This document shows, one piece after another, positions 2,384-9,991 of a stretch of DNA of 10,002 nucleotides. The first letter of the stretch is position 1. Every line of letters begins with the position of its first letter. The translations under genes and the position numbers were made by a program. Under the pieces are notes generated by a model. It did not search any database. It saw only the letters and a program-made list of their open reading frames with translations, and was not told the DNA's origin. This DNA is from Globomyces pollinis-pini (lineage: Eukaryota; Chytridiomycota; Chytridiomycetes; Rhizophydiales; Globomycetaceae): assembly GCA_025399215.1 (NCBI GenBank), contig MU621566.1, positions 1 through 10,002 on the forward strand, read 5' to 3'.

Positions 2384-3466
2384 TTAACGTCGATTTTGAG
2401 TCAACCACTCGGATACCAACTCATACACCTAAAATGAATACAAAGATTCCATTACCACCCAAGTAGTGGCCATACTAGGTGCAACCAATCGATGTACAAC
2501 TCCCTTATAAAAGGCACTGTATCCTTCATTTTTGATCATGTTTTTTGATATGTTGATGATTAGTTGTGAGCTATTGAGAGTGGAGGGTGATTTTTGAACT
2601 CTAGTTTTCAAAATATCTACAGGTGTGTTTATAAGTGGTCCAGCACATCCTGCTATAAAACCTATAATGGCAGTTTGATATAAAGGAATTGGACCATTGT
2701 TGTGAAACTCAAGAAGTTTGGATTTCAAATAGGTATATACTAAAAAGTTGGCACCTTGACAACTAGCTGATTGTTAAATTATGAAAATAACCTTGACGAA
2801 TTATGGTTAATCCCATTCCTTTATATAATGCTTGAATACCCTCTTCTTTGACAATTAATAATCCAGATTGAAATGCTCCCCGATATTTAGGTATATCTAA
2901 TGGATCAGTTATGGATTGTCTTTGTGCTTGTAATCTAATCTTGACAACTTCCATTGGAGTCACAACCAATGCTGCTTCAGTAGCACCTGCACTTAAACCG
3001 GCTAATCGAAATTAATTTCATTATAAAACATACCTAAAATAATGAGTCAATAATGGTCAATATACCCAAGAAAACACCTGTATATGTTATATTTCCAGCC
3101 TGATCTGTAAGAATTTCCTTGTAAATATCGTATGAAGTGAATCGAATGGCCATTTTTGGTACCATTCCAGTCAAAACAGCCCCAATACCTTTATACAAGG
3201 ATGGAAACCCTTCCTTTTGAATAATATTCCAAGCAGCATTCCAAAAATGTTTTTGAGGAGTCTAAATGATCAACATGGTTAAATTAAAATACAGTATTAG
3301 AATTAACAGTTTGAGTATAATTATTTGTAATTCGAATATGTCTTTGACGTAATTGTTTTCGAACTTTGACAGTATCGAATGGATGACAGACAAAAGCTTC
3401 ACAGAAACCTGCCAATCCGCCTGCTATTAAATTCACTGTTAATCCTTTATTGGCTTCATTCTTCAT
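2384..3466 (-). CDS. Mitochondrial carrier, succinate/fumarate (SFC1/ACR1)-like, five exons
   Basis: Joined exons 3466-3293, 3261-3066, 3001-2792, 2754-2456 and 2428-2384 give 924 nt, a 307-aa protein of normal carrier length. All three SLC25 signatures P-x-D/E-x-x-K are present: PFDTVK 29-34, PMEVVK 139-144 and PVDILK 238-243. Each is followed by the usual glycine-rich and basic matrix segment (KEEG, KNEG; YKGMG, YKGVV). VPKMAIRFTSYD in repeat 1 and LVVTPMEVVKIRLQAQ in repeat 2 are typical of the tricarboxylate/succinate-fumarate branch. Family members exchange carboxylates across the mitochondrial inner membrane, and in yeast Sfc1 supports growth on two-carbon sources. The exact substrate here is inference. 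Splicing restores F-L-A-G-L-S-A-G at exon 2/3, R-Q-G-A-N-F at exon 3/4 and T-W-V-V-Y-E-L at exon 4/5, each matching the family. The start ATG is the first Met, 18 residues before the first helix core. Confidence 0.88.
2429..2455 (-). other. Intron 4 of the carrier gene, 27 nt
   Basis: Donor GTAATG, acceptor TTTTAG. Removal joins ...TTWV to VYELVSEW..., restoring the end of transmembrane helix 6. Its length is a multiple of three and its last three bases are an in-frame TAG, so retention gives eight extra residues and then a stop. Shifting the donor three bases upstream (30 nt) is also in frame but has a poorer donor. Confidence 0.8.
2755..2791 (-). other. Intron 3 of the carrier gene, 37 nt, flanked by an 8-nt direct repeat
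   Basis: Donor GTTATT (unusual third base), acceptor CAAG, with TTTAAC as a possible branch point. GTCAAGGT spans both exon-intron junctions. Only the AG of the second copy restores the frame (R-Q-G-A-N-F); the nearer TAG would run into a stop. Confidence 0.82.
3002..3065 (-). other. Intron 2 of the carrier gene, 64 nt, divisible into two 32-nt introns
   Basis: The outer boundaries GTATAT...GATTAG restore the conserved F-L-A-G-L-S-A-G. Exactly halfway, TTTTAG meets GTATGT (junction 3034/3033), giving a first half at 3065-3034 and a second at 3033-3002, each 32 nt with GT and AG ends. It may be removed as one unit or in two steps. Confidence 0.85.
3262..3292 (-). other. Intron 1 of the carrier gene, 31 nt
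   Basis: Donor GTATTT, acceptor TTTAG, with TTTAAC inside as a possible branch point. It joins ...VNSNT to TPQKHFW... in phase 0. A 46-nt alternative starting at an upstream GTTAAT is also in frame and would remove five more residues from a loop. Confidence 0.72.
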
Positions 3467-3763
3467 CGTTAAAAAAAAATTAAAATTTTAGTGTTCTGTC
3501 ATTAAACTCTTTACACACACATTAGAAAACTCAATAAAACAAATCACAGTAATTTAATAAAGAATACAATGTAGTAAAAATTTAATGATAATGGAATGGT
3601 CAATCATTGATGTTCCATAATTACTTATGTTGCAAAATTAAGTACCTGACCCATACAATAATCAATCATATCTTATTTACAAGTAATAATTATTAGAGTA
3701 ACTTGGCGATTGTCGTAGACATGATGTCACCACTATCGCGCTATTGATATCTTTCCAATTTCA
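3467..3763. promoter_or_regulatory. Divergent promoter region, carrier (left) and 7TM gene (right)
   Basis: These 297 bases separate two divergently transcribed genes and must carry both promoters. An A-run at about 3471-3479 lies next to the carrier start (a T-run in its leader). Near the 7TM start are ATGATGTCAC (3721-3730) and the GC-rich patch TCGCGC. An in-frame TGA at 3722 limits the 7TM start to 3764. No clear TATA box or initiator can be singled out in this AT-rich background. Confidence 0.6.
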
Positions 3764-5272
3764 ATGTCGATAAATACAAATGCAAATGCTGCATTTGCAA
3801 TACAATCGCATTGGTTGCGCACTGATTGTAGTAACCCACCAGATTTCATTCTTGGAAATACAGATGTTTGGTCAACTATTCCTTTTAGTGGTTTGGTTTA
3901 CAATGGCTTGGGGTTTTGTGGTTGGGAATGGGTGAAAGATTGTAGTTCTCCTGGTATCTGTTCAGCATCACTCGATTTGGACATGTCTTCTGGATACAAA
4001 AGTTTTCAAAATTCATACCTGGATGCACTTCCAAATTCGTTCAATGATTGGTTATTTCCTAAAGACGCAAAAGGTGAATATTATTGTGTTATCTCGACGG
4101 ATCAAAATAATACTGCTCTAATTTTAGCTGGATCTTCATATTGTTATATGGATTCAATGAAATGTACCACAACGCATAAGCTTCACTTGTATCCTGACAC
4201 TGGTTGTGTGGGTATCCCAACAACCATAGTACTATCTCCAACCAGTGAATCAGTGACAATTAACCAGACCCCTTATGATCTATCAATATACCGAATTGGA
4301 AACGGTACAGAGAGTATCGATTGGACAACTTATATCTCCTCCTTACCCAATTTAGTCCAAGAACAAGAGCAGCTATGGATTGCTTCACTGGTATGTACAA
4401 TAATTGCCATTTTGATTGCGTTCTTCCACTTGATTATATCTACTACTCAATACTTACGCTCCAAGCGCTGGAATTATTTAGCTTACTCTATTGGATTTAG
4501 TCTCAATATCGTAGAAGTGATTGCAATCTTTTTAGCTTGGATTCAATGCACCATTCCTGGATATGTTAGTAATTTTGCTTATGGACTTGCATCTGGTTTT
4601 ACCGTCACATTGAATACAGCAGTACTTATGGAGATTGTTTTTCACAGCAAATCATATAGAATCTTGATTCTTTCGCTATTTACCACTCTGTATGTGTTTT
4701 TTGGATTTCCATTTGTACTTAACGTTGTATACATGACAGGAGATCCATCGCCAGTCAAAGATTGGATGATGTGGTATTTTAATTCAATTAGTTATATAGC
4801 CTGGCAAGTCATTTGTTATGTGTTTGAACCAGCTACAGCGATTACGATATTAATCTACATTGTTCAAAGTTGTCTCAAACAATCGACTTTTTGGACCAGT
4901 ATGAAGATTTTATTTAGCGACAAAAAGTTAATGTTTCTATGTAGCATCAGTCTTGGAAACAGTATCATCAGTATCTTTCTACAATTTGCCACTACTTACA
5001 CATTATTTGCAAATAACGACAAACGAATGATATTCTATCAAACCATATTTTCAATTCAACATACCATCAATTCTTGTTGTACACTGTGGTATTGCTTATA
5101 TTTTCCTCAAGTATTACAAAAGTTGAAATTGTTACAAAGTTGCGGTAGTGATCAAGTTCCGAAAATGAATACCGCGATTGATAGTTTAAAGATGAAAGGT
5201 TTGAAATTGAATCGAGGTGTGAAGAGTTCAATATCTTTTGGAGAGAAATTAACTCGAAAGGCTACGAAATAG
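3764..5272 (+). CDS. Seven-transmembrane protein with Cys-rich ectodomain (receptor-like, unknown family)
   Basis: An intronless 502-aa protein. Residues 1-200 are hydrophilic with eight cysteines (22, 52, 60, 66, 108, 127, 134, 148) and N-glycosylation sequons at 115, 167 and 180, as expected of a disulfide-bonded extracellular domain. Seven hydrophobic spans follow at about 204-228, 240-260, 272-294, 299-322, 343-367, 389-415 and 425-447, with basic connecting loops (LRSKRW). The tail of about 55 residues is lysine-rich and probably cytosolic. This is the shape of a G-protein-coupled receptor, with the N terminus outside. I recognise no family motif, so ligand and signalling role are unknown. 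There is no clear cleavable signal peptide; the first span may act as signal anchor. The start is the only ATG after an in-frame TGA at 3722. Stop is TAG. Confidence 0.85.
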   Translation: MSINTNANAAFAIQSHWLRTDCSNPPDFILGNTDVWSTIPFSGLVYNGLGFCGWEWVKDCSSPGICSASLDLDMSSGYKSFQNSYLDALPNSFNDWLFPKDAKGEYYCVISTDQNNTALILAGSSYCYMDSMKCTTTHKLHLYPDTGCVGIPTTIVLSPTSESVTINQTPYDLSIYRIGNGTESIDWTTYISSLPNLVQEQEQLWIASLVCTIIAILIAFFHLIISTTQYLRSKRWNYLAYSIGFSLNIVEVIAIFLAWIQCTIPGYVSNFAYGLASGFTVTLNTAVLMEIVFHSKSYRILILSLFTTLYVFFGFPFVLNVVYMTGDPSPVKDWMMWYFNSISYIAWQVICYVFEPATAITILIYIVQSCLKQSTFWTSMKILFSDKKLMFLCSISLGNSIISIFLQFATTYTLFANNDKRMIFYQTIFSIQHTINSCCTLWYCLYFPQVLQKLKLLQSCGSDQVPKMNTAIDSLKMKGLKLNRGVKSSISFGEKLTRKATK

Positions 5273-5479
5273 TCATTTATGGTAGAAACCAATGGTAGAT
5301 TAGAGTTTACCCTTACTTATGCAATGAAATTACATATATCAAATTAGTTAATAGATTTAATTACTTGATTGATTTCTACCTGTAATAGTTTCCCAAGCTC
5401 ATTTGGAAAGACTTAAGATGATCCACTATTTATTAGTAAAAGTGATACGTTATCAATTGAAAATTTAGAGACGTTTACC

Positions 5480-6496
5480 ATGATTGTTGTAACTATCATC
5501 AATTTTATGATACGATTTATGGAAACTATTTGCATCATTATTTTTATTAGTGTGTTTTCTAGGCAGATCAATGATTTAAAAGTGTGGCAAAATCTTCCCA
5601 AATCAAAACCTCAGCAATTCACATCTATGGATAAATCCTTGATAGCAAAAGGAGAGAATGTGGATTTGGATACAATTAATAGTTCATCACAACTAAGCGA
5701 CTTGGAGAAGTTTCCACAGGGATTGATTTATCATATTATTGGGTACTTGAACCTTTCTGATTTTTTATCATTCAATCGGGTATCCAAGAGTCTTTCTAAA
5801 TGTCCATTCACTCTACGACAATTACATGAGCTTTATCAGAACAGTGCGATATTCAAGAAAGTAGAATTACTGCAAAAATACTTGATCTTAATACCCTTCT
5901 CATCTATGACTTTTCACAACGTACTTATTCGTTCCATTTATCTGAATAACCTATCGATTGTGGAAATGTTATTGAAGGATTCAAGACTCAAACCCTCAGC
6001 TTATCGCAATTTCGCTATTCGACATGCTTCTATATATGGTTATGAAAGAATAGTGAAAATATTATTGGCAGATGTCAGAGTTGATCCATCTGCCAAAGGT
6101 AATTACGCCATTCGAAATGCTGCTGCAAATGGTCATGTAGAAGTAGTCAAACTTTTGATAGCAGATCCAAGAGTAGATCCCTCAGCTGATCATGATTATG
6201 CTATTCGACATGCAGCTGCATTGGGTCATCAGGAAGTAGTGGAAGTTTTATTGGATGATTCAAGAGTTGATCCGTCTATTTACGCCAATGGGTTGATTCG
6301 TAAAGCTTCTGCCAGTGGTTATACAGGAATTGTTAAACTGCTACTGAAAGATTCAAGAGTAGATCCATCTGATTCTGACAATGATGCTCTTAAGCAGGCT
6401 GTATCACATGGTCATTCAGGAGTGGTGAAACTTTTAATGGCAGATTCAAGAGTTAATTGCTCTGTTGGCCACACCTATGATATGGTGTACCCATAG
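5480..6496 (+). CDS. F-box protein with ankyrin repeats
   Basis: 338 aa from the first ATG. An F-box-like segment at about 75-106 (LEKFPQGLIYHIIGYL then NLSDFLSFNRVSKSL) precedes an ankyrin domain. One divergent repeat at about 141-166 is followed by five exact 31-residue units beginning at D167, D198, D229, D260 and D291, with consensus D-S-R-V-D-P-S ... AIR-A-A-GH-VVKLL, and a partial unit at 322. F-box proteins bind Skp1 in SCF ubiquitin ligases and ankyrins recruit the substrate; this role is inferred. Residues 1-27 are very hydrophobic and may be spurious: Met50 at 5627 is an attractive alternative start 25 residues before the F-box, though 5480 has the better A at -3. The protein ends abruptly after the partial repeat (TAG). 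The 207 bases before 5480 show nothing beyond AT-rich leader. Confidence 0.8.
   Translation: MIVVTIINFMIRFMETICIIIFISVFSRQINDLKVWQNLPKSKPQQFTSMDKSLIAKGENVDLDTINSSSQLSDLEKFPQGLIYHIIGYLNLSDFLSFNRVSKSLSKCPFTLRQLHELYQNSAIFKKVELLQKYLILIPFSSMTFHNVLIRSIYLNNLSIVEMLLKDSRLKPSAYRNFAIRHASIYGYERIVKILLADVRVDPSAKGNYAIRNAAANGHVEVVKLLIADPRVDPSADHDYAIRHAAALGHQEVVEVLLDDSRVDPSIYANGLIRKASASGYTGIVKLLLKDSRVDPSDSDNDALKQAVSHGHSGVVKLLMADSRVNCSVGHTYDMVYP
5978..6442 (+). repeat. Five tandem 93-bp units encoding the ankyrin array
   Basis: Five consecutive 93-base units with no indels. Each starts with a variant of GATTCAAGAGTTGATCC (for example at 5978, 6071, 6164, 6257 and 6350); a sixth partial unit begins at 6443. 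DNA-level likeness at the unit starts points to tandem duplication within the gene. Confidence 0.88.
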
Positions 6497-7050
6497 AACT
6501 GAATCTGAAATTCCATCATATCTTTACGATGACTTATAATGGAAATGGAGGTTTTAAAATCAGATTCTAACAATCAAATTTTAATTCAAGTTCATTCTGA
6601 AAGTTTCTTATATTACATTGTAGTCGTGATTTGAGTCTTATTAAACAAACTGTCATAGCTGTAATTTCAGCAATGTGTATTTGATTTAGGTTATTACTCT
6701 AGTCAATATGATCTTAACATTTTTATCAAAATTTGAATGACGTACAAAGATCGGTTATTTTGGTTAGGGATATCAATTCCTCCGGTTAGATTGTTGATTC
6801 AGGATTTGTATGGTTGACTATGTTTTAAAAGACTTCATCAAAAAATGTCAAGAATCATTCCATTTCACTTACCAATCCATGAAAACTTTATCCAAAAACA
6901 CCAAAGACGATGTTCTTATCTTCTTTACCATCGAATGGCAGATGAACTGGTCCTATGTGAATAAGTTTCCGATAAACGTTGTTGGTGAATTGAACCCAAT
7001 GAATTGCCACACATTAACTTTCCTAAAAAAACATAAACATCAACTTAGCA
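6497..7050. other. Intergenic region between ankyrin and acyltransferase genes
   Basis: 554 bases. No gene is convincingly supported. A plus-strand open frame from 6810 runs through 7050 and on to 7238 in a different frame from the acyltransferase. Its first 60 residues look protein-like but match nothing I know, and its second half overlaps the real first exon. The region must contain the acyltransferase promoter; an in-frame TAA at 7024 fixes that gene's earliest start at 7051. Confidence 0.55.
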
Positions 7051-8462
7051 ATGGAACCCATATCAAGACTACCAACTACCAAATCACCGGCTTCGACCAA
7101 AATATACATTCTCCAATCATTTATTTTTGGATTTATACTCTTTTCCGCTGCCATTTCAACCATTGCTATTGCTATGACTGTCAGTATACTTTTATTCATC
7201 CCTTTGATTGTTCAGAAATACGTTCCGGAACATTGTGATACTGTTCAAGTTCAGTGTCGACAACAATACATCAATTTTATTCGAATCACTAAAAAATCTT
7301 GTGCGTCTGCTTTTGTAAATTTTCCCATGTAGTTTAAATTTTTTGGTAGGATATTATGGTGGGATTGTTATGTCCAAATACAAAAATCATTCTCACTGGG
7401 GATCATGCTAAATTACAAACGATTGATAAGTTCACAATGTTTGCAAATCATCAATTGTACTGTGATTGTAATTTAGATTTCGCATTTTTAATTAAATACA
7501 GGGATCTATATCTTCTTATTGGCTCGGCATTTTGATAGACATGGAGATATCAAATTCATGTTAATTCAACTAGTTCAAAAGATTCCTTTGATTGGACAAG
7601 TTGGAACAATATGGGATCTACTGTTTATGCAACGAAAATTAGAACTGGATAAATTCAATATTTTGGCCAATATGAAACGTCAACGTGAATATGCTTCTCA
7701 TTTACCTCTTTGGATGGTGATATTTCCAGAAGGCACATTGAATGTATATAGTATAGGTAATGCTTACTTTAGACTCCTGAAACCCGTGCAAAGTGTCGAG
7801 AATTTGCAAAGAAGCATGATATCACTGAAGATCCAAAAGTAATACATGATGAGTTTTAACACCATTAGTACGTTTTATTACCCAAATCAACAGGACTGTT
7901 TATGGTAACAGATGCATTAAAAACACAATTGAATGATTGTTTTGATATCACCATTGGATATTCTGGTTTGGAAGCGGTCGATATCCCAATGGATTACTAT
8001 ATGCCAGGTGAAGTGTTTTTCGGACAACGATACCCAAAAGAAATCCATGTACATGTCAAGCACTATCAAGTTAATCAACAACCTGGATTTGATGACCAAG
8101 TCATTGACCCAACCAAACCACTTCAACCTGATTCGACAACTAAAAATTTTGTTCAAATCTTTGATGAAAAGACGGATCAACGTCGATTACGATTCTCCAA
8201 TTGGGTCACCAAACGATTTATGGAAAAGGATGAACGTATGAAAGATTTTTATGAAGATGGAGGGTTTGATAAAGCTCACCAACATGCAGGATATAAAACT
8301 AATGAGAAAGATATTTGGCAGGTGAATCCTAATGCGAATGATGTCATGCTTGTATTGACTACATGGGTGATTGGATACACGTTAGCTAATTTCTATTGGT
8401 GGACATTTGTCAAACTCATTTCAGTTATTGTCACCATCTCCAGATTTGTTTTGAGAATATGA
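7051..8462 (+). CDS. Lysophospholipid acyltransferase (LCLAT1/AGPAT5/CST26-like), five exons
   Basis: Exons 7051-7314, 7350-7467, 7502-7743, 7773-7838 and 7869-8462 join to 1284 nt, 427 aa. A long membrane segment (18-54) is followed by the acyltransferase domain. Motif I is NHQLYCDW at 121-128, with the catalytic His122 and Asp127 pair of NHx4D. The acceptor-binding region has FMQRK, and motif III is FPEGT at 202-206. The post-domain typical of this branch follows: TRAKCREFAKKHDI, then YVLLPKSTGLF at 231-241, then PKEIHVHV at 286-293, then W342 and RFMEKDERMKDFY at 346-358. A C-terminal hydrophobic stretch (about 388-426) suggests a second membrane anchor. The family transfers acyl groups from acyl-CoA to lysophosphatidate, lysophosphatidylinositol or lysocardiolipin, usually at the ER or mitochondria; the acceptor is not decidable here. 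All four introns are needed to keep these motifs in frame. Stop is TGA. Confidence 0.9.
7315..7349 (+). other. Intron 1 of the acyltransferase gene, 35 nt
   Basis: Donor GTAAAT, acceptor GGTAG, phase 0. It joins ...KSCASAF to DIMVGLLCP.... An in-frame TAG at 7330-7332 would end translation if it were retained. An earlier AG (18-nt version) destroys the NHQ reading frame. Confidence 0.85.
7468..7501 (+). other. Intron 2 of the acyltransferase gene, 34 nt
   Basis: Donor GTAATT, acceptor ATACAG. It interrupts the catalytic motif itself: D127 is upstream and the codon of W128 is split T|GG, so splicing is required to make NHQLYCDW. Confidence 0.92.
7744..7772 (+). other. Intron 3 of the acyltransferase gene, 29 nt
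   Basis: Donor GTATAT, acceptor CTTTAG, phase 0. It follows FPEGTLN directly and joins it to TPETRAKCREF, which matches the family. Confidence 0.9.
7839..7868 (+). other. Intron 4 of the acyltransferase gene, 30 nt
   Basis: Donor GTAATA, acceptor CATTAG, phase 0, with internal TTTTAACA as a possible branch point. It joins TEDPK to YVLLPKSTG. The length is a multiple of three and an in-frame TAA lies inside. Confidence 0.9.
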
Positions 8463-9294
8463 TTGATTTTTACAATATAAATGATTTTTTGTTAGTTAGA
8501 ATTTACAGCATTGATTTTAGAGTGTTCACAGCGTGGTATGAGACACGAGTTGTATCAGTATAGACGGGATGGGGATTTAAAGAAGATTTGAGTCAGTTGT
8601 GTTTCCTGGGTTTATTCTAATCCTTCATTCCATTGATTTTGGTAATCAATTACATTCTAATATATTATTGTTCTTTGCTTGCCATTGGTATGTTACCATA
8701 AACGAGGGGGAGATTAAGTGGAATTGACCACACTGTCTTCTTGATTGGTTCTACAATTCGTCACTTGGGCAGACGCGAAGTTCGCGCTTAAATAAAAACA
8801 AAAGCAAAACTTCCAAATAGAATCAATGGATATCAATCCTTTTGCAAAGTGTGACTTCATTATTCTCATTATTCTTTGATACATTCAAGATGACTGCCGT
8901 GATACACACATCGAAAGGTCAATGAATTCACAGCAATTGTAAAAGATCATAAATTCGGTTATTTGTGAATTAATTTCACTTGAAATTTCAATCAATCCAA
9001 CCAACGATTATCAGAATTGGATTTTTTGATAAGGTGTTATTTCATCAATCTGGAATAGGATGATATCTGTTTCAAAAGGGCGAAATAAATTACAAACGTT
9101 TTTGCCCGTCACAATCAGTCAATCTAGGGAAATGCATAACAACTTGAAAGTCGGTTAGATAATACGCGTTTTTCACACATTTGATATTCTGGTTTTCATT
9201 TGTAATCTTATTTTAGAGCAGTATCTAATCTATCATTAAGAATGATTGCCTCAAGTTATAATATTTGAGGAAGTGCAGTGGTGATTGTTTATTT
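8463..9294. other. Convergent intergenic region, 832 bases
   Basis: This lies between the 3' ends of two convergent genes, so it needs no promoter for either and is long for so compact a locus. I see no tRNA or known RNA. Contents: a GC-rich palindrome at 8774-8786; an AATAAA at about 8791; ACGCGT, the MluI cell-cycle box sequence, at 9164-9169; an inverted repeat AATCCAA (8994-9000) / TTGGATT (9017-9023); and a minus-strand open frame at 8714-8860 of 48 codons with a signal-peptide-like stretch. None is strong enough to call a gene. Confidence 0.6.
8774..8786. repeat. GC-rich palindrome CGCGAAGTTCGCG
   Basis: A perfect 6-bp palindrome around one central base, with three CpG steps per arm pair, in DNA that is otherwise AT-rich. 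It could be a binding site for a dimeric factor or a small hairpin; function is unknown. Confidence 0.6.
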
Positions 9295-9991
9295 CTAATT
9301 GCCAATGGAATGATCCAAAATCATATCATGCATAATATCATACCAACAGTCAATCCATTCTTCCTCATTATCACCATGTTCTAATGATTCTAGATGTGGA
9401 AACACATATTTATCAAAAGCTTTGGCCGTCACTCGATTCGCCACTGGTTTGACCAAATCTTTCAACCATACACGATCAAAATCAGCATCCAAATCAAATT
9501 CAGTTTCGAATGCTTGAATGAATTCTGTCCATTTACATGGTGATTTGAGATTCAATTGCTGAAATAGATATTTTCCAGGAGTGTATTTATAAATGATGGA
9601 TGATTGTCCAGTAAATCCAGAGATGTTGGACATACTTTCTGAGCCTTGTTTCTGATTGGTAGGTAATCGAGACACAACTAGTTCATTAAAAGTGTCATAC
9701 TAATTTACATTTTGAATAGGTTGGAGCCTTTCTTGTCACTTGGAATGAAGCTTGATCAATTGTTTCCAAAACTCTTAAAAGTTCAGTAGCGGTAGGTCGC
9801 AAATAAGGTTGATCATTTCGACAATCCATAATCAATTGAACTACACTAGGATTGGAAATATGAGCAGAAAGAAACTTTTCAACATCATTGGCAGATTTGT
9901 ATAATCCACTCCATAAACTAACATAGTTTTCCAACGTGATAATGTTGATCAAACATCCCCCAAACGCATAAATATCGTATTTTGAAGTTTT
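9295..9991 (-). CDS. Protein kinase (TKL-like), C-terminal part with extra C-terminal region; 5' end outside window
   Basis: Two exons are visible: 9991-9709 and 9677-9295, joined across a 31-nt intron, giving 221 residues up to a TAG stop. The first exon carries the kinase C-lobe: subdomain IX K-Y-D-I-Y-A-F-G-G (4-12), and subdomain XI with DCRNDQPYLRPTATELL (56-72), including the conserved Arg of RPTA. These are typical of tyrosine-kinase-like serine/threonine kinases. The catalytic HRD and DFG motifs and the ATP loop would lie beyond the right edge. A Ser/Gly-rich linker follows (about 96-120), then a predicted helical region (134-190; KWTEFIQAFETEF, NRVTAKAFDKYVFPHL) resembling EF-hand-like or linker domains without clear calcium loops, and an acidic tail (DNEEEW). 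The role of the extra domain is unknown. Activity cannot be judged from this part. Confidence 0.8.
9678..9708 (-). other. Intron of the kinase gene, 31 nt
   Basis: Donor GTAAAT, acceptor AACTAG. It splits a Phe codon T|TT and fuses the kinase domain exon to the last exon. Retention meets an in-frame TGA within the intron. Confidence 0.8.

Follow-up and report, generated by a model that had tools for sequence, protein, structure and literature searches.

Very short GT-AG introns and tandem arrays of contiguous introns in a chytrid fungus

A mitochondrial carrier gene and the other genes of contig C459

The window analyzed here is the whole of contig C459, a stretch of 10,002 bases from an 18.5-Mb, 459-contig assembly of a chytrid fungus of the order Rhizophydiales, an organism we take to be saprotrophic. 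On its reverse strand lies a gene for a succinate/fumarate-type mitochondrial carrier that is broken by very short introns, two of them lying directly against each other (Table 1). Both features recur throughout the assembly: nearly all of the spliceosomal introns that we detected are GT-AG introns of about 23 to 38 nt, with a peak at 28 to 29 nt and a branch A typically some 7 to 10 nt from the 3' end, and introns are also found in tandem arrays, in which 2 to at least 12 complete introns, joined AG|GT with exons of zero length between them, occupy a single insertion point in a reading frame.

The spliced carrier product is identical, in 311 of 311 residues, to P0003, an entry deposited as Globomyces pollinis-pini, and the predicted splicing of 31, 64, 25, and 27 nt is exactly that of the deposited gene model, which others had made. 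A preliminary description of this DNA had taken the 64-nt segment (3002-3065) as one intron; the segment itself was recovered, and it consists of two contiguous 32-nt GT..AG introns. Retention of either unit shifts the frame, while removal of both yields VFL-A-GLSAGATEAAL. The same description had listed eight short introns, and we recovered seven of them, measuring 27, 29, 30, 31, 31, 34, and 35 nt. We did not recover the eighth, of 37 nt: the sole 37-nt intron that our gene model called in the window (9918-9954) was rejected, since the frame there stays open when the segment is retained, and the remaining carrier intron measures 25 nt.

Table 1. Genes and introns of the window that bear on the analysis
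Feature	Position	Strand	Remarks
Succinate/fumarate-type mitochondrial carrier gene	2384..3466	-	311 aa spliced; five intron units at four sites; Mito_carr matches
31-nt intron, phase 0	3262..3292	-	carrier gene
First 32-nt intron of tandem pair, phase 1	3034..3065	-	GTATAT..TTTTAG; own GT..AG, AG|GT junction
Second 32-nt intron of tandem pair	3002..3033	-	GTATGT..GATTAG; zero-length exon before this unit
25-nt intron, phase 1	2767..2791	-	removal gives TIIRQ-A-SCQGANF, matching the deposited protein
27-nt intron, phase 0	2429..2455	-	carrier gene
Lysophospholipid acyltransferase-like gene, four introns	7051..8462	+	spliced reading open to stop
35-nt intron, phase 0	7315..7349	+	gene model and open spliced frame
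34-nt intron, phase 1	7468..7501	+	joins NHQLYCD-W-IY
29-nt intron, phase 0	7744..7772	+	joins FPEGTLN-TPETRAK
30-nt intron, phase 0	7839..7868	+	joins PK-YVLLPKSTGL
31-nt intron, phase 1	9678..9708	-	kinase-like gene (label by eye) running off the contig; called by gene model alone

Two Pfam families match separate exons of the acyltransferase-like gene, Acyltransf_C with 32.2 bits and Acyltransferase with 23.0 bits, a score at its cut-off, and the joins at the 34-, 29-, and 30-nt introns presumably restore conserved motifs. A called intron at 8352-8385 was rejected, the frame being open without it. Six further calls were rejected around two open reading frames (4899-5470), four of them lying inside open frames and two bridging the frames. 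The first frame (3725-5272, forward strand) encodes 515 aa with several hydrophobic stretches, looks by eye like a seven-transmembrane (7TM) protein, and has no Pfam match. The second (5417-6496, forward strand) encodes an ankyrin-repeat protein with near-regular DSRVDPS repeats, its N-terminal part being F-box-like by eye.

The window also holds two adjoining intronless GNAT-like paralogues on the reverse strand (100-909 and 1305-2114), the first of which is covered by two Globomyces sp. JEL0801 proteins, P0001 and P0002 (99% identity over 69% and 100% over 33%). Elsewhere in the assembly, a 5.5-kb span (C68:55194-60634) holds four stretches that are nearly identical, all open TAGGTATTCATC, and look like a duplicated gene family.

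Length and splice signals of introns across the assembly

We called introns with a gene model that was self-trained on the sequence and that combines codon usage, splice-site matrices, and explicit intron lengths. The training sample comprised the window and twenty 10-kb stretches (210 kb), five of which were placed at carrier genes and all of which were picked before the arrays were known. With intron length given a flat prior of 15-300 nt (three rounds), the model called 202 GT-AG introns of 20-40 nt versus 21 of 41-61 nt, while five decoy dinucleotide pairs gave 43-61 and 36-60 calls in the same two classes. In a second run the flat prior spanned 12-80 nt and loci L039 and L040 were added; it returned 393 and 120 GT-AG introns, and 146-264 and 148-319 for the decoys. 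False calls are many with any dinucleotides, yet the length peak (28-29 nt) is found only for GT-AG.

The gene for the spliceosomal protein Prp8, an independent test, gives the same picture at a single locus. All 15 of its introns measure 27-33 nt, and the spliced product aligns with human Prp8 in one stretch over residues 18-2320 (4,560 bits), with small gaps in a variable region in the part of the alignment that we inspected, the first ~516 residues. Across 417 short intron calls, A stands at position +3 in 81% and T at position -3 in 71%. The branch-like motifs TTAAC, CTAAC, and CTAAT are enriched; their A sits about 19 nt downstream of the 5' splice site and, in 199 of 314 motif matches, 7-10 nt before the end of the intron.

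We see no sign of a longer class of single introns. When only calls flanked by coding sequence are counted, 20 of 190 GT-AG singles measure 41-80 nt, versus 64-119 of 97-187 for five decoys. A version of the model that allowed introns up to 300-400 nt was set aside, as gaps between genes became filled with long introns. Several of 25 long-intron calls with coding flanks plainly bridge genes and the others were judged by eye, so that rare real long introns may exist; two such calls in L018 end inside a stretch resembling a start codon plus signal and are bridges between genes.

We also asked how often an intron would introduce an in-frame stop if retained. This was the case for 178 of 221 introns of length 3n, 134 of 237 of length 3n+1, and 134 of 220 of length 3n+2 (window, L001-L030, L039, and L040), counts in which 3n introns lacking a stop are poorly detected by the model. 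The excess in 3n introns is as expected under selection through nonsense-mediated mRNA decay, with the detection bias acting on it as well. In Paramecium, 3n introns without an in-frame stop are depleted.

As sequence, the tiny introns are certain, and it is very likely that they are genuinely spliced as introns. Annotation or assembly artefacts, whether frameshift errors or programmed frameshifts, would be an extremely improbable source of these segments, given their consistent GT..AG ends and branch motif, a narrow length peak that is lacking in the decoys, and 15 joins in Prp8 alone. The preliminary description had proposed uniformly tiny spliceosomal introns, and both the GT-AG length peak, absent with decoy dinucleotides, and the exact carrier protein match bear this out; the genome-wide peak near 30 nt that it had put forward as a check is the one at 28-29 nt. 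It was also correct that the code is standard, with all three stops in use (TAA 52, TAG 15, and TGA 13 at 80 predicted gene ends), and that the source, a fungus, is not a ciliate.

A compacted spliceosome, which the same description had suggested, is not visible in the components that we surveyed: Prp8 is full length, the U2 small nuclear RNA (snRNA) is canonical (135 bits, with the branch-pairing GUAGUA intact), and there is probably a U2AF65-like gene. The best exon of the U2AF65-like match, on C16, scores 94.7 bits, under the family cut-off of 310.3, and 2 of 14 control genomes, both bacterial, also matched the profile below cut-off. These introns test the lower size limit of the substrates that a seemingly ordinary spliceosome can process and whether an upper limit exists, and gene predictors with an assumed minimum intron length may misread such genomes.

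Tandem arrays and their origin

The tandem pair in the carrier gene belongs to a larger set of arrays, built of units of 24-38 nt. The gene for the GTPase Ran has a three-unit array before its P-loop, FKLVL(V)GDGGTGKTT, with two of the units identical, and the spliced protein aligns with Ran from the PDB over 161 aa without a gap. The longest array that we found, 12 units in 365 nt, stands just before the DFG motif of a kinase, VKIT(D)FGLSN, whose spliced sequence aligns gaplessly with MARK3 through VKITDFGLSN. A histone deacetylase carries a 26+26 nt array at residue 17, and a gapless 211-aa alignment with human HDAC1 covers the join. Further arrays comprise five units in a Ras-family GTPase, presumably of the Rab type, between TITT and YYRG; five units in another kinase, before LIHTDLKPEN; eleven in a PhyH-domain gene; six, of 27 nt each, in the short-chain dehydrogenase L042; and six in the mitochondrial carrier L006, which we take to be SLC25A38-like.

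A Pfam scan of ten spliced array-bearing proteins gave an above-cut-off match spanning the join in seven, namely Ran, the Ras-family GTPase, two kinases, PhyH, and two carriers (L006 included). A universal-stress-protein match (E 2e-4) also spans an array join, just below cut-off, and in the dehydrogenase and the deacetylase the Pfam match begins after the join. We do not count the L042 array as homology-verified, its join lying three residues before the Pfam match, nor a second pair in L006, which falls outside that protein's match.

Arrays can also be sought by the hexamer TAGGTA, the 3' end of one unit followed by the 5' start of the next. Pairs of TAGGTA number 379 at 23-36 nt apart versus 68 at 86-99 nt, and pairs of a reversed-pattern control number 270 and 245. 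Triples with both spacings at 23-36 nt number 105 versus 10 for the reversed pattern. Taken with the protein alignments, these counts indicate arrays that are real and widespread in the genome.

We think it quite probable that these observations reflect one system, in which tiny GT-AG introns and AG|GT tandem arrays coexist, the units are separately excised under intron definition, and the arrays have grown by duplication. Under intron definition, a U2-type spliceosome would pair splice sites that lie nearest each other and would remove each unit separately, in any order; with zero-length exons between the units, the mRNA would be the same whatever the order. Arrays would grow by tandem duplication of whole units, through slippage or unequal exchange aided by the repeated AG|GT, and such duplication would be close to neutral, since each added unit splices itself out. 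Duplicated units would then diverge, constrained to the signals of a tiny intron. The points that weigh against this account are set out in the following paragraphs, beside the evidence that each of them qualifies.

Tandem duplication followed by divergence likely explains the similarity among neighboring units, because these are sometimes near-identical (32/32 nt in Ran and 28/28 nt in C12). Alternatively, arrays could have arisen by repeated insertion of unrelated introns, through reverse splicing or as introners, into an earlier AG|GT. To compare these possibilities we used 72 triple matches drawn from the listed part of the 105, with overlaps dropped by eye and chosen regardless of similarity. 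For 14 of the 72, the similarity between neighbors lies above the 99th percentile for unrelated pairs, with at least 85% identity in five of these; the other 58 pairs have no detectable similarity, and insertion of unrelated introns could have contributed to them. An AG end is also found in 9 of 16 exons flanking arrays versus 147 of 678 beside single introns, and a GT start in 7 of 16 versus 77 of 678, as would be expected from insertion into such sites, although the set is small and includes some model-only pairs. Against insertion, the near-identical neighbors point to local duplication, and the highest identity among 3,000 randomly sampled pairs of single introns was 0.83 (mean 0.535). In a local set, 18 of 89 neighboring units exceed the threshold versus 13 of 587 neighboring introns parted by exons, and mean identity falls from 0.62 for neighbors to 0.57 for non-neighbors of one array and 0.54 for other arrays, but this set was partly chosen by similarity (6 of 10 selected array loci were picked partly for alike units), a bias from which the 72-pair test is free. 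We therefore regard insertion as a rather doubtful source of the arrays.

Given that some arrays are near-identical repeats, it is also possible that an array is a single long intron containing a minisatellite, such that 50-365 nt would leave in one reaction and the inner AG|GT junctions would be passive relics of duplication. One-step excision has been reported as an alternative pattern for stwintrons, the composite introns of Ascomycota (PMC12403724, in the part available). We examined the motif YTRAY, with its A 6-13 nt from the unit end, in units from pairs of less than 60% identity, and found it in 33 of 70 versus 11 after the interiors were shuffled; the frequency is 47.6% in single introns and 13.5% in unused GTA..TAG decoys. 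The TAGGTA pattern that found the arrays ignored the branch site. Since the branch motif is kept in diverged units, each unit seems to be maintained as an intron of its own, which favors unit-by-unit excision over one long intron. Single introns of 41-80 nt likewise show no excess over decoys, as described above, and at both splice sites the scores of inner units equal those of single introns, although this comparison is in part circular, the sites having been picked by the model. Excision as one long intron thus appears unlikely to us, and separate excision, like growth by duplication, is likely on this evidence.

The gene model itself sets limits. It over-calls single introns: because 8 of the 17 sites that it called in the window were rejected, the 575 intron sites that a later version found in the 210 kb (564 of them single, 3.7 sites per kb coding) are inflated. 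The length prior of this version had been trained (18-42 nt per unit), and its median of 28.5 nt leans on that prior; the flat-prior runs and Prp8 are free of that dependence. Eleven of the 575 called sites are arrays (the window pair included), five of which have at least three units, while seven runs with decoy junctions gave 2, 12, 2, 5, 1, 6, and 3 array calls (12 with CA). Two-unit arrays seen by the model alone are unreliable, with 1-12 array calls per decoy run versus 11 for GT, and were dropped as evidence, for example in L024 and L026. Since only one decoy call in the seven runs had at least three units, long arrays are reliable and model-only pairs are not. Extrapolated with wide error, five long arrays per 210 kb correspond to about 440 in 18.5 Mb. 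Counts over mixed loci (738 sites, 28 arrays) take in loci chosen for arrays and an overlap between L003 and L030, and we prefer the 210-kb sample.

Two spliceosomal RNAs were also missing from our searches, which covered contigs of at least 10,002 bases, so that short contigs may be outside the searched set. U6 snRNA was not found with Rfam RF00026 (47 of 1792 candidates scored), two core patterns, or a stem-loop pattern, and U1 snRNA was not found with Rfam RF00003 (41 of 244 candidates scored). One of 30 core-pattern matches for U6, C70:57163, was taken further and rejected, as it has no Rfam match. The U1 and U6 genes may possibly sit in contigs outside the searched set, or be interrupted or divergent.

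A bolder reading, which we hold only slightly above an even chance, is that the arrays form a gene architecture of a new class: self-excising intron minisatellites, or "polyintrons," present as hundreds of arrays per genome and spread by tandem duplication. Here the spliceosome would handle only introns of about 23-40 nt, and extra intronic DNA would persist only as whole self-splicing units, so that intron growth would become growth in copy number. Intron gain is a long-standing open question, and in this genome intron units seem to multiply at many loci and are found at all degrees of divergence, such that birth, copy-number change, and selection could be measured between isolates.

Comparison with known systems

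Introns of Paramecium are about 25 nt long. Very short GT-AG introns of narrow size range are described genome-wide in ciliates (15-16 nt in Stentor), mikrocytids (16-17 nt), and nucleomorphs (18-21 nt), according to the available parts of PMC9505925 and PMC10245619. The chytrid resembles these systems in having very short GT-AG introns of narrow size throughout its genome, and differs from them in being a fungus with a full-length Prp8, many introns, and tandem arrays. Among the matches listed in our search of openly licensed literature, titles and the starts of abstracts described neither tiny introns in a chytrid nor arrays of this kind. In a survey of 644 fungal genomes, the 63-bp mean of Cryptococcus neoformans is called relatively short (PMC8476143, in the portion available).

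Two known routes of intron gain offer partial parallels. In the Cryptococcus gene CNN00420, introns were gained through expansion of DNA repeats in a repetitive gene region (PMC2395259). Insofar as the available text of that report describes it, the likeness is that new introns form by duplication of existing ones, and the difference is that exon and intron there seemingly repeat together, whereas in the chytrid only the intron is repeated, and this at many loci. Introners, as outlined in the accessible part of PMC9860276, are introns that multiply within a genome and spread to new genes. Similar chytrid copies, in contrast, lie side by side.

In Drosophila, ratchet points allow recursive splicing at zero-length exons, subdividing introns of many kilobases. 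The chytrid arrays share, as sequence, the AG|GT junction with its zero-length exon. They differ in that each step would be a whole intron of 24-38 nt, the longest array spans 365 nt, and no very long intron is subdivided.

Another comparison within fungi is with stwintrons, in which more than one U2 intron occupies a single intronic stretch and excision is consecutive under intron definition, as set out in the part of PMC12403724 available to us. Chytrid arrays likewise hold more than one U2 intron in one intronic stretch. In a stwintron, however, the internal intron is set within a splice signal of the external one (donor, branch site, or acceptor), and neither the window pair nor the arrays show such an interruption: their units are complete and contiguous, and number up to 12. 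We class the arrays as a variant of complex introns, and reserve for the bolder reading the view that intron minisatellites form a separate class.

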